From NCBI GenBank assembly GCA_946488855.1, contig CAMLWC010000006.1, positions 1-46,436 on the forward strand: a DNA stretch of 46,436 nucleotides, given 5' to 3'. A program made the translations under genes and the position numbers. Below the pieces are notes generated by a model. The model had not been told where the DNA came from, ran no database searches, and was given only the letters and a program-made list of their open reading frames with translations. The stretch is from an uncultured Mycoplasmatota bacterium (GTDB lineage Bacteria; Bacillota_I; Bacilli_A; RF39; UBA660). Shown here in pieces: positions 4,288 to 46,436 of this stretch; the stretch's first letter is position 1; every line of letters starts with the position of its first letter.

Positions 4288-4716
4288 TTATCTTCTTTTT
4301 GATATTTGTTCATCATCTATATAATACATATTCAAACTGTTTTTCAATTCTTTTTCAATTATACCCATTTTTTTATTTAGTAACTCCATATATTTTTCAT
4401 CTAAATAAATAGAGTATTTTTCTTTTATTACTTTTTTATATCTTTCCAAATCACCTAATGCAATTCTTGTATCATCATCATTATCACCATCTAAATTTTC
4501 AATGATTATTTTCAAATAAAAATCTAGTCTATTTTTTATTTTTCTTTTAATTATTTTTTCAATTAATGAGGGTTTTATTACAATCATTTCATTTACTTTT
4601 ATACCATCATATTGATAATTATTTTTAGGATTTAACTTATAACCATTTAACTTATCATAGTTAACTAAAACCACTTCACCATTATAATTTTTTTTCGATA
4701 TTAAATATTGTCTCAT
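4288..4716 (-). CDS. Hypothetical protein (142 aa) downstream of trmD
   Basis: Intact ORF directly after trmD, same strand; no recognised family. Confidence 0.6.
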   Translation of the reverse strand: MRQYLISKKNYNGEVVLVNYDKLNGYKLNPKNNYQYDGIKVNEMIVIKPSLIEKIIKRKIKNRLDFYLKIIIENLDGDNDDDTRIALGDLERYKKVIKEKYSIYLDEKYMELLNKKMGIIEKELKNSLNMYYIDDEQISKRR

Positions 4717-6698: not shown

Positions 6699-8444
6699 TT
6701 AAATCTGATATGGATTACTCCAAGTACCATTACCTCTGGTAATGGTGACATCAGAGTTAACAACTATAACTGCACGAAGGCCATTCGCGATGGACACACC
6801 AGAGTTGTAGGCATCACCATAGTCGTACACGCGCCAAGCGAGAGAACTACTTGTATATGGTGTCATTGTCCAATAACTTTTTGCATTATTATAACTACTT
6901 GTACCATTATATCCATTAGTCAATATACTACTGCTTTGACTTGATAACATTTCTCCTACTCTTATTAATCCAACTGTTGCTTGTATACTTCTTGTTGGAT
7001 TTTCTTCATTCAATGATATTGTATAATTTTGTCCATAATCAAAATTATTTTGATACCAAGTATAGTTACTTACTAATTTTGATTTTTCTGTTTCACTATT
7101 ATTTGTTAGCCAATTTAATACATCTCCATTTAATTTTTGTCCTATTCCTGTTGTTGTTGAAAATGTATTATTTGAACCATATGACATATTATATATTGTT
7201 CCAGATATCTCCTCATAGTATCCATCTAGTATTAATTTTGTATTGCCAGTACTATCTTTATCTACTACACGATATTTTCTTCCAGCAAACAATACATATT
7301 CGCCACTTATTGTTTTTTCATTTAATTTTCCTGTTACTTCCACATTTTTATCTTCGTTTAAAATATATGGCCCGGATTGACTGCTCCAAGTTGCTCCTAG
7401 AGTACCATTACCTCCGGTAATGGTGACATTAGAGTTGACATTTATAACTGCACGAAGCCCATTCGTGAGGAACACATCATCGTTGTAGGCATTACCATTG
7501 CTGTTCACGTACCAAGCGTTAGAACTACTATATGGTGTCATTGTCCATTGCCATTGTCCTATGTTTAAATACGAACTGCTTCCTCCTGCTAGATTATATT
7601 CATCTAGTGTCATTAAGCCTACTTTTGATTTTTCAGTTGATAAATTACTTGCACAAGTAGTTCTTGCACTTGAATTACTAGTAGTTGTTTCACTACACCA
7701 AGTTTCTTCTTCTATGATATTATTTCCTTTTAATCTGGAATAAAAATAATTATTTAACCAATCTTTGGCATAACTTTCATCCCAATTCTCAGCAGTGTTA
7801 TCTGCTCCCCAAGGTATTGATGTTATAGGTTCGTCAGTTATTAATCTTACTGTTCCATCTGAATTTATTCCCATTATTCGCCATAAAAACCCTGAATACC
7901 ATAGTGAATTATTAGTTGAATTTTCTTTTATATAACATCCGCCCATATATTGATATGTTGTTCCATCTGTTTTACAAGAATCATTTGAATACACCAATTC
8001 TTTAGCTTTTTCTATTATTGGATCACCTACTAATGCTATTTCATCACCACATTCTTCATCATCCATTGCAAATTGATTATTTGAGCATAATGTAAATTTA
8101 TGATTATTACTTTCAATCACTAATTCTGTTAATTTGCTTCCATTATATTTTATACTTGTTATTTCAGCATTACCTAAATTAACCATTGTTTGTACATCAT
8201 CAACATCCATATCTGATGTACATATTTTTGCATAACTATTATCTAATTGATATTTTACATCCTCTGTTGCACAATAGTTATTTATTCCACCTAATATCAT
8301 TTGAGCTTCTGACTTACCAGCAGATATCTTAGCATCCTCAATTACATTTAATATAATTGGTGTAGCAATAAGAGCTACTATGGCTAGTATAATAATTACT
8401 GCTAATAACTCAATCAAAGTAAAAGCATTTTTTATTTTCTTCAT
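6699..8444 (-). CDS. Prepilin-leader surface protein with two tandem DUF6273/C-type-lectin-like domains; candidate DGR target
   Basis: N-terminus MKKIKNAFTLIELLAVIIILAIVALIATPIILNVIEDAK (class III prepilin leader); two domains (WRIMGINSDGTVRLI... and YRVVDKDSTGNTKLIL...), each ending WTMTPY...GLRAVI.VNS.VTIT.GNGT. Confidence 0.85.
   Translation of the reverse strand: MKKIKNAFTLIELLAVIIILAIVALIATPIILNVIEDAKISAGKSEAQMILGGINNYCATEDVKYQLDNSYAKICTSDMDVDDVQTMVNLGNAEITSIKYNGSKLTELVIESNNHKFTLCSNNQFAMDDEECGDEIALVGDPIIEKAKELVYSNDSCKTDGTTYQYMGGCYIKENSTNNSLWYSGFLWRIMGINSDGTVRLITDEPITSIPWGADNTAENWDESYAKDWLNNYFYSRLKGNNIIEEETWCSETTTSNSSARTTCASNLSTEKSKVGLMTLDEYNLAGGSSSYLNIGQWQWTMTPYSSSNAWYVNSNGNAYNDDVFLTNGLRAVINVNSNVTITGGNGTLGATWSSQSGPYILNEDKNVEVTGKLNEKTISGEYVLFAGRKYRVVDKDSTGNTKLILDGYYEEISGTIYNMSYGSNNTFSTTTGIGQKLNGDVLNWLTNNSETEKSKLVSNYTWYQNNFDYGQNYTISLNEENPTRSIQATVGLIRVGEMLSSQSSSILTNGYNGTSSYNNAKSYWTMTPYTSSSLAWRVYDYGDAYNSGVSIANGLRAVIVVNSDVTITRGNGTWSNPYQI
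6726..6746 (-). promoter_or_regulatory. Inverted repeat at 3' end of VR2, candidate DGR target-recognition hairpin
   Basis: Perfect 9-bp stem ACCATTACC-AGA-GGTAATGGT (coding strand). Confidence 0.6.
6726..6872 (-). repeat. Candidate DGR variable region VR2 with 3' hairpin
   Basis: 147 bp aligned with 7404-7547: 21 substitutions plus one extra codon (ACA); 19 of 21 at codon positions 1-2; 16 of 21 have A in one copy. Confidence 0.72.
7404..7424 (-). promoter_or_regulatory. Inverted repeat at 3' end of VR1, candidate DGR target-recognition hairpin
   Basis: Perfect 9-bp stem ACCATTACC-GGA-GGTAATGGT (coding strand). Confidence 0.6.
7404..7547 (-). repeat. Candidate DGR variable region VR1 with 3' hairpin
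   Basis: 144 bp; paired with 6726-6872, same substitution pattern. Confidence 0.72.
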
Positions 8445-8455
8445 ATATTTACTCT

Positions 8456-9217
8456 CTACCTTTCTATTAAAATTATTTTTTCAACCACTTTTCTAATATC
8501 TCTTTCATTAAATGGCTTTCTTAATACATCAACTATTTTATAATCAAATGATTTTTTAACAATATCATCATTGCCAACACCAGTTATTATTGCCACAGGA
8601 ATTTTTTCTAATAAATTATTTCTTTTCATATATTCTAATACGACAAAGCCATTAACATTCGGCATATTTAAATCTAACAACATACCTACTAATTTATCAT
8701 TATTTAATTGTTTTACCGCTTCCATACCATCTTTAGCAACAACTACATTAAATTCATTATTAAATATTTTTTTAATAAAACTACTAATTACTTCTGAATC
8801 ATCAACTACTAATATTGTTTTATCTTTGACAATATTAATTTCTTCTTTTTTAATTGTTTCTTTACCAAAATACTCTCTTACAATATTAAGTATTCTATTT
8901 GTTTCATTCATTAATTCATCAAAATGATCATAAACATAATAAATGTGATTAGCTTTGCTTTCTAATTCATGATTATACGCTAATCCAGCTAATTTATCAA
9001 AGCCAAAATATTTAGCATCACTTTTTAAAGAATGAACTAATATAGCATAATTAGCCATATCAGCAATTTCTTTATATTTTTTAATATTATTTATCTTTTC
9101 ATCAATTTCTCCTAAAAATGTTTCTAAGGTTTCATTATAAGTATCCATATCACCAAATAATTCTAAACTTTTTTCAACATTAACACCATTATTTTTTAAT
9201 ATATTAACATCTTTCAT
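8456..9217 (-). CDS. Hpt-domain plus response-regulator receiver protein
   Basis: Hpt-like helices with AILVHSLKSDAKYFG; REC domain TILVVDDSEVISSFIKKIF, LLDLNMPNVNGF, VAIITG, VLRKPF; ends 11 nt before the pilin-like gene. Confidence 0.85.
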   Translation of the reverse strand: MKDVNILKNNGVNVEKSLELFGDMDTYNETLETFLGEIDEKINNIKKYKEIADMANYAILVHSLKSDAKYFGFDKLAGLAYNHELESKANHIYYVYDHFDELMNETNRILNIVREYFGKETIKKEEINIVKDKTILVVDDSEVISSFIKKIFNNEFNVVVAKDGMEAVKQLNNDKLVGMLLDLNMPNVNGFVVLEYMKRNNLLEKIPVAIITGVGNDDIVKKSFDYKIVDVLRKPFNERDIRKVVEKIILIER

Positions 9218-43998: not shown

Positions 43999-46071
43999 TT
44001 ATCCTATTCTGAAAGCTGGCGATACACCAATTTTACTATTTGAGATACTTTGTCTACACTTTCCACTCATCTCTACATAGTAAAAGCTATCATCATCAAA
44101 GTAATAAGCCGTACGTAACCACCATGATACTTCATTTTCTTGATAATATTTTATCGCTCCTAAATAGTTATCTATAGTTACATTATTATTTTTATAATAA
44201 TCTAATTGTCTTGTTAAATTTGTAGAAGTATCTCCACCATCTGGATTGTTATCCCACACTTCTTTTGGTGATAATAAATATAGTTTATCGGTGGAAGTAA
44301 AATTTGATGTTTCTGATTTACCATGACTAGAAACAACAAAAGTATTTATTATGACATTTTTTAATTCATTTGATAAATTATTATAAATAGTTGTATTTAC
44401 AAGACTATACAATTCAGTTGATTGCCATCCACCAATACTATCATTTGGATAATTCATTCTATTTGGAGTAATTATATCAACAAATTCTACAACAAATCCA
44501 CAAGCTGTTTGTGAAAATCCTGATGTCGCACATTCTGATGGAGTTGATTTATTTGCTATTCTTACTGTAAATGTACCATATCCGGATACTGTTACTTCTT
44601 TTGTATCTCCTACATTATACATACTAGTATTATTATTTCTTACTGCATCTGCTATTGTTTCCCATGAATCTGTTGCAAATGATACTGGTTTTGTTTTAAT
44701 AGTTATCCGTTTAGATGCTGTTACACTTTTACCATTTCCTCCTGTTGCTGTACAACTTACTGTTTGTGTTCCTACTCCTAAACTATTTGTATTAGCTGGA
44801 TTACAACTTATACTTCCCCCACTTATACTATATCCTACATTGAAATAATTACTTACTATATAACTATCTCCTTGGTATATTGTAACGCTTCCACCTTTAT
44901 CTGTTAATGTTGGACTATTCTTATCTAATTTTATTGTATAACTTCGTGTAGCACTATTCCCTGCTAAATCTGTTGTTGTTATTATTACTGTTGTTCCTGT
45001 ACTATTTGTTGTTATTTTACTTGTATTACTTGTTGTACTTAAATGTCCTGATAAACTATCACTTCCATTTACTACATTTACTGTCACATCTGATGTATAC
45101 CAAGCATTACTTCCTAAAGTTCCTACTAAATTTGCTGTTCCTGCTACTGGAGCTGTTTTATCTAATTTATATGTATCACTACATATTTTTGTTGTTTTAT
45201 TATTATTATCTGTTACTTCTATACATAGTCTATTACTTCCTTCTACTTCTATATAGAAATCTTTTGTTGTTCCACTTATATCTGCTGTTGGAATACATTC
45301 ACTACTACTATTACTTGTACAACTTTTTGCTACTTTTATTCCACTTCCACTATTATCAGTTATCGTTGCTCTTACATAGAAGTTTTCTTTCGCCCACCCA
45401 TTACTATTTATACTTGATGGATTTACTAAATTATATACTATTGTTGGTGATTCCGCATCTATTATTATATTTCTTATTACTTCTCTTTCATTTCCTGCTT
45501 TATCTTTTACTTTATATGTTACTTTTTTTGTTCCTGTTATTGATGTATCTATACTACTTGGTTCTATTATTATTTCTCCATCTATTCCTGATAATGAATC
45601 ATTTGCTGTTACATTTTCTTTTAAATTTACTACTTCATTTTTTTGGACTACTTTATCTCCTATTCCTTCTATATTTGGTATTGTTTTATCTAATTTTATA
45701 ACTTCACATTTCTTTTCACTACTACCTAAACTATTACTTGCTATTGCACATATGTAGTTTATTCCTTCTATTGTTATAAATTTGGTATTATTTCCTGTTT
45801 CTATTATATCATTCGGTTCACATTCACTATTTCCTATACAGTATTTTATTTCACCTATTCCTGTTATACTTACTGATATATTTTCTTTTGCCCAACCATT
45901 ATTATTTATTAATTCATTATTATATACTATATTTACTTCTGGAGGATCATCAGTTTTTTTACATTCACTATCATATTCAAATATATATTGTTTATTTTCT
46001 TCATTCCAATAATACCATACACATCCAGACATTTCTTCATTTGTTACTGGATTTATTATTTTTGTATTCAA
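43999..46071 (-). CDS. Surface protein with Ig-like repeats and C-terminal DUF6273-like domain; probably the C-terminal part of the 46343 prepilin gene
   Basis: Repeated WAKENxxV.. and DUF5011-like modules (LDKTxPxxxG); DUF6273-like end GGWQSTELYSLVNTTIYNNL...WWLRTAYYFDDDSFYYV...GVSPAFRIG; no own signal peptide. Confidence 0.8.
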   Translation of the reverse strand: MNTKIINPVTNEEMSGCVWYYWNEENKQYIFEYDSECKKTDDPPEVNIVYNNELINNNGWAKENISVSITGIGEIKYCIGNSECEPNDIIETGNNTKFITIEGINYICAIASNSLGSSEKKCEVIKLDKTIPNIEGIGDKVVQKNEVVNLKENVTANDSLSGIDGEIIIEPSSIDTSITGTKKVTYKVKDKAGNEREVIRNIIIDAESPTIVYNLVNPSSINSNGWAKENFYVRATITDNSGSGIKVAKSCTSNSSSECIPTADISGTTKDFYIEVEGSNRLCIEVTDNNNKTTKICSDTYKLDKTAPVAGTANLVGTLGSNAWYTSDVTVNVVNGSDSLSGHLSTTSNTSKITTNSTGTTVIITTTDLAGNSATRSYTIKLDKNSPTLTDKGGSVTIYQGDSYIVSNYFNVGYSISGGSISCNPANTNSLGVGTQTVSCTATGGNGKSVTASKRITIKTKPVSFATDSWETIADAVRNNNTSMYNVGDTKEVTVSGYGTFTVRIANKSTPSECATSGFSQTACGFVVEFVDIITPNRMNYPNDSIGGWQSTELYSLVNTTIYNNLSNELKNVIINTFVVSSHGKSETSNFTSTDKLYLLSPKEVWDNNPDGGDTSTNLTRQLDYYKNNNVTIDNYLGAIKYYQENEVSWWLRTAYYFDDDSFYYVEMSGKCRQSISNSKIGVSPAFRIG

Positions 46072-46094
46072 ATATCCTTTTCTTTGTATTTCAT

Positions 46095-46343
46095 TTAAAT
46101 ATAACTCTGTTTTTTTGTTGGATATCCTATATCATGTTCTACACTATAGCTATAAGCTGCTTCTTCTATATTGTCAATAATTCTTTCTAATGCTTGCTCT
46201 TTACTATTTTTTATTGATTTATCTATTATTGGATATGTTATTAACGCTATTACTCCTAATACTATTATTACTCCTATTAATTCTACTAATGTAAAAGCAT
46301 TATATAATGCCCCCTCTGCTTTGCTATTTGCTATTTTTAACAT
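46095..46343 (-). CDS. Prepilin-leader N-terminal fragment, out of frame with the 43999-46071 ORF
   Basis: NAFTLVELIGVIIVLGVIALITYPIIDKSIKNSKEQALERI; RBS AGGAGTGA before ATG at 46343; runs off-frame at an A7 tract. Confidence 0.8.
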   Translation of the reverse strand: MLKIANSKAEGALYNAFTLVELIGVIIVLGVIALITYPIIDKSIKNSKEQALERIIDNIEEAAYSYSVEHDIGYPTKKQSYI

Positions 46344-46436
46344 ATCACTTCACTCCTATCATTACTTATAAAGTATACATTAGACCGTAAAAATTTAACT
46401 GTGTAAGTTTGAATATTTGTTATTTTTACCTTTCTA

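Follow-up and report, generated by a model that had tools for sequence, protein, structure and literature searches.

A surface gene at one end of the window is split by what we read as an ordinary frameshift that inactivates the gene or, at best, reverts very slowly, in a surface protein family marked by redundancy and recombination, and not as programmed recoding, an interpretation drawn from sequence comparison to which we give a probability of about 0.68. It builds on the split itself, the uninterrupted homologs, a lesion common to the window gene and a second copy in the same genome (contig C15), and the ordinary nature of the A7 tract beside the break. The window is the whole stretch of DNA analysed, one complete contig (C6; 46,436 bases, 24% GC) of a MAG of 1.23 Mb in 76 contigs that is 71% complete, and its relatives in the genus are deposited as "uncultured Bacilli" MAGs. 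Around 25 prepilin-type heads are present in this genome, and the window holds a second prepilin-type surface protein that is intact (6699-8480, minus strand, an open frame of 593 codons). The split gene starts 93 bases from the contig end. An Rfam search returned nothing besides a tRNA. The features discussed below are the following:

46095..46343, minus strand: prepilin-like head ORF, 82 aa, with the type IV pilin N-terminal motif NAFTLVELIGV...
43999..46071, minus strand: downstream ORF, 690 aa, first possible start TTG; read as the same gene continued in the -1 frame
45460..45615, minus strand: bacterial surface Ig-like domain (PF16403, E=1.1e-5, just under gathering)
44005..44433, minus strand: C-terminal DUF6273 (PF19789, E=5.7e-15)
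46110..46116, minus strand: A7 tract (T7 on the plus strand), zero-frame phase A AAA AAA
46104..46109, minus strand: CAG (conserved Gln, zero frame) and the next codon, the best frame-change site by frame-aware scoring
46310..46316, minus strand: GAGGGGG in the leader, in frame with the prepilin motif, at the site of the G9-G14 tracts of sister species
46382..46436, minus strand: right end of an IS256-family element (inverted repeat ...ACGGTC), inside which the contig stops

Two open reading frames form one gene

The head ORF carries the N-terminal cleavage and methylation motif of type IV prepilins (TIGR02532, 18.5 bits against a cut-off of 16.3; PF07963, E=0.00067, just below gathering) and ends in ...GYPTKKQSYI*. 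Direct reading confirms the arrangement described in the sequence-only reading: after the A7 tract the zero frame continues as CAG AGT TAT ATT TAA, while the -1 frame is open from just 5' of the tract into the ORF at 46071-43999, giving an open frame of 710 aa. The same reading had noted that this downstream ORF lacks a signal peptide of its own, which is correct, and it has no prepilin head either.

Of 46 distinct heads from the genus in which an NPV linker can be recognised, 44 continue in frame into the NPV region that follows, and the only two broken ones are those of the window and of C15, both in this genome. In three paralogs of this genome (C26, C30 and C12) one unbroken ORF covers the same head, the linker GY-x-[ST]...NPVT and a following domain. 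Because homologs carry both parts in one frame, the join of the two ORFs is more than chance, as had been proposed, and the comparison identifies them as parts of a single gene interrupted by a one-base frameshift. Single-ORF relatives composed of a prepilin head, Ig-like and DUF6273 domains (the three paralogs as well as G009, G010, G017 and others) share with the window gene its head, the GY-x-T/S...NPV linker and related downstream domains, but unlike the window gene they have an uninterrupted reading frame and no A7 at the site. An intact gene would encode a prepilin-like head of type IV, followed in the same protein by Ig-like repeats and a C-terminal DUF6273 domain. Since 44 of the 46 heads read through, the short "pilin" is the truncated end of a longer protein; none of the homologs argues for the short form as a product in its own right.

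The break lies at or beside an ordinary A7 tract

We scored every possible switch point against the homologs in a frame-aware manner. In the alignment, the zero frame of the window agrees with intact homologs up to and including the CAG directly 3' of the A7 tract, and this column holds Gln in 13 of the 18 nearest homologs and K, R, N or E in the others, but never Thr, which a slip or indel inside the tract would place there. The best frame switch falls at the codon after CAG, with a score of 139.7 versus about 136 when all 36 same-length homologs are used and, at a moderate margin, of 89.4 versus 83.4 and 80.2 inside the A7 for the 18 nearest. Indels are commoner in A-runs than elsewhere, which offsets this modest difference in alignment score. 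The lesion sits in the A7 or only a few bases from it, most likely just 3' of the tract; its exact position is estimated from scores of moderate margin, and the A7 should not be taken for granted as the lesion. Loss of one base at this place in the window copy would stop translation after 82 aa, and the surface domain would then presumably not be made from the broken copy.

The A7 tract is at background frequency and ordinary. Sense runs of at least seven A number 63 in the 36 ORFs of the window versus 70 +/- 7.4 after codon shuffling, so that the tract is neither longer nor commoner than background, whereas a contingency locus would be expected to exceed it. No A-tract of this kind occupies the column in aligned homologs. 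In G007, two homologs have an A7 at a distance of about 7 nt and remain in frame. MutS scores over the cut-off in 16 of the 18 genomes of the genus and MutL in 17 of 18, and the presence of these mismatch-repair genes would hold down slippage in short tracts. It is in this light that we consider slipped-strand phase variation between A7 and A8, by which the cell would alternate between full-length adhesin and short pilin. A surface-exposed multicopy family is a typical target of such switching, in related species these genes contain poly-G tracts that resemble switches (see below), and the downstream ORFs are open in both broken copies. Nevertheless, a tract that is short, at background frequency and unconserved at its site, next to a lesion that fits better outside it and in a genus with mismatch repair, makes a switch at the A7 quite unlikely.

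Programmed frameshifting and transcriptional slippage

The heptamer A AAA AAA at 46116-46110 follows the slippery pattern X XXY YYZ in zero-frame phase. This part of the sequence-only reading stands, but its further suggestion of a working recoding site is not supported: homologs do not have the heptamer, no stimulator structure accompanies it, and many others like it occur. A programmed -1 ribosomal frameshift at this place would yield both a short pilin and a long adhesin, and an AGGA resembling a Shine-Dalgarno sequence is found 8 nt 5' of the heptamer, but this AGGA also encodes the conserved D-I-G-Y. In the alignment, 44 of the 46 homologous heads are in frame without the heptamer, and no 3' stimulatory RNA structure was found (-2.3 kcal/mol for the 60 nt that follow and -9.2 for 100 nt, where the pairs are scattered). 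Moreover, heptamers in the same phase occur 29 times in ORFs of the window, others of them in ordinary ORFs, the slip product would read Thr-Glu where homologs have Gln-Ala/Pro, and A_AAA_AAA is a weaker shift site than A_AAA_AAG in E. coli (PMC5009743). The likeness to the dnaX-type -1 frameshift on A AAA AAG ends with a slippery heptamer in the correct phase, whereas the window has AAA instead of AAG, no conserved site and no 3' hairpin. We regard programmed frameshifting as the most improbable of the explanations considered. What looked like a slippery site would turn out to be a broken copy in a redundant family, and sightings of slippery heptamers in genomes of 24% GC need a background count.

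Slippage of the RNA polymerase at the A-run, partly rescuing the reading frame, appears very improbable as well. Backward transcriptional slippage, that is, insertions, is known from A/T runs of AT-rich Buchnera and increases with run length (PMC5574713), and the window with its 24% GC resembles the cases of poly(A) slippage rescue in Buchnera and Blochmannia in being part of an AT-rich small genome with a frameshift beside an A-run. However, the A7 is short in comparison, nothing indicates a lesion inside the run, and any effect would be low-level and non-specific given the 63 such runs in the window. An inserted A would also not restore the conserved Gln.

The same break at a second locus

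Around the break, the window gene and the C15 copy show no difference over 423 bases (window 45839-46261), yet they are distinct loci with mur genes versus a RelA-like gene downstream and with different leaders. The ORFs downstream of both breaks are still long and open, at 690 aa in C6 and about 550 aa in C15. A recent gene conversion or duplication probably brought the lesion to C15 or spread it between the two loci. Before their sequences diverge, the copies differ by three synonymous and two nonsynonymous substitutions, which may predate the conversion; beyond the identical tract, substitutions are too few to show decay or constraint, and dN/dS of C6 versus C15 and C36 is uninformative on the time since the break.

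Since the identical 423 bases hold the break at both loci, an independent sequencing slip is unlikely. An assembly or sequencing indel, with one or both loci intact in the living cell, had been among the options raised at the outset and is less likely because the second locus carries the same break; we consider it unlikely, though foremost among the alternatives. The gene lies at a contig end of a fragmented MAG beside a multicopy IS end, and the assembler may have copied one collapsed 423-bp repeat consensus into two contigs, in which case the copies would not be independent and one or both could be intact. Set against this are the two separately resolved contigs that carry the break and the 62 other A>=7 runs of the window, all of which sit inside open ORFs. 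The genus relatives are, besides, metaSPAdes-style (NODE) assemblies, in which single A7 errors are uncommon. The long open downstream ORFs remain a counterpoint to the broken-copy reading, as a switch would also give them.

Probable decay and mosaicism, and an IS256-family element

Other prepilin-surface genes of this genome are broken in other ways. In C1 (L014, C1:70392 region) about 4 bases are lost before the DPRDSS linker, and in C13 (L019, C13:19737 region) the middle of the gene is lost and the head is joined out of frame to the tail; both lesions are unlike homopolymer slips. With at least two further members broken by other lesions, ordinary decay of a redundant family is favoured over a programmed device. 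As a separate observation, the C36 gene (L009, G000:C36, 4824-2410) combines a different prepilin head with an Ig-like/DUF6273 body almost identical to that of the window gene, a structure that we interpret as mosaic head/body shuffling within the family.

An IS256-family element of about 2.17 kb accompanies these genes and consists of a transposase (PF00872) and an upstream ORF matching the C-terminal part of the same family (copies at L140 2432-4604 and L141 305-2496, and at the window end 46382-46436). Its right end lies directly 5' of a prepilin-type gene in all 8 of 8 clear copies (C6, C15, C26 and C1 of this genome; G009, G012, G001 and G005) and is 96-100% conserved in most copies, across species; C15, compared over a longer stretch, and G005 reach about 89%. 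No target-site duplication of the element is evident by eye. Assembled contigs tend to end within this element, and the contig break of the window is explained by the fact that the contig stops inside this multicopy IS end. IS ends 5' of prepilin genes support the picture of a recombining, repeat-rich family, and no role of the element in the frameshift was found. A 54-bp repeat at the contig ends was considered as a crossover site for phase variation and rejected, as it is the end of the IS256-family element. In G001:C93 (L141), where two divergent prepilin genes flank the element, its left end borders on the sequence (AAATTAATTATAGG...) next to which its right end is found in G009. The element may either have inserted in opposite directions at a single hotspot or have been inverted.

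Poly-G leaders in sister species

A search of 18 genomes of the genus for G8 found tracts of at least eight G in 11 species, while the genome of the window has no G8 tract. Most of them, 35 out of 43 distinct tracts, belong to a conserved leader that directly precedes a prepilin or related hydrophobic head and typically has the form ...AACAAATAGCAAAAAT-Gn-CATTTATTAAATAATGC..., and these leader tracts range from G9 to G14 in ten sister species (for example L140 (G009:C26) at 4690, L143 (G005:C49) at 403, and L182-L221). With the in-frame state defined simply by an upstream ATG in frame with the prepilin motif, about 10 of the 35 are in frame and 23 out of frame, with 2 unassigned, and the in-frame share comes near the third that a free-running tract should give. 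Out-of-frame genes retain long open bodies (e.g., 1085, 805 and 717 aa), and others are cut by contig ends. The leaders thus combine a long 5' G tract in surface genes and conserved flanks with lengths that give in-frame and out-of-frame states while the bodies stay intact, as contingency loci do. The tract encodes glycines in a leader that is presumably cleaved, so that its length would alter the frame and not the mature protein.

We therefore see in the poly-G leaders a putative contingency-locus pattern, likely a phase-variation system, and a better lead than the A7. The initial intuition of phase variation finds support in this form for the gene family in sister species, but not for the A7, which is at background and unconserved. 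The pilC genes of Neisseria, with G9-20 in the reading frame, are a known poly-G contingency locus (PMC5953494), and the prepilin genes of the sister species resemble them with leader tracts of G9-G14 that occur in frame as well as out of frame. In the window gene this leader contains only GAGGGGG (46316-46310), in frame, which we interpret as a short in-frame remnant of the poly-G tract; the window gene differs from pilC in having this remnant only and in a break that lies elsewhere, outside any G tract. If the leader poly-G switches in vivo, uncultured small-genome Bacilli would vary their surface by the mechanism of Neisseria and Campylobacter, and a literature search of incomplete coverage found no paper on poly-G surface switching in such Bacilli. 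A broader scenario, in which the genus has a large phase-variable prepilin-adhesin repertoire run by leader G-tracts and the A7 region of the window species is a replacement switch copied between loci, strikes us as improbable.

The same leader with poly-G also precedes a second class of genes with the head GFAISGII in G012 and G014 (L193, L194 and L196). In G113, which belongs to another genus of the family, seven G7-G9 tracts follow the same GCAAAAAT motif (L229, L231-L236). These tracts are outside the reading frame, several of them shortly before prepilin-type genes, and after some of them come C-rich sequence and runs of T, as in a terminator hairpin; the tracts are possibly a transcriptional version of the same switch.
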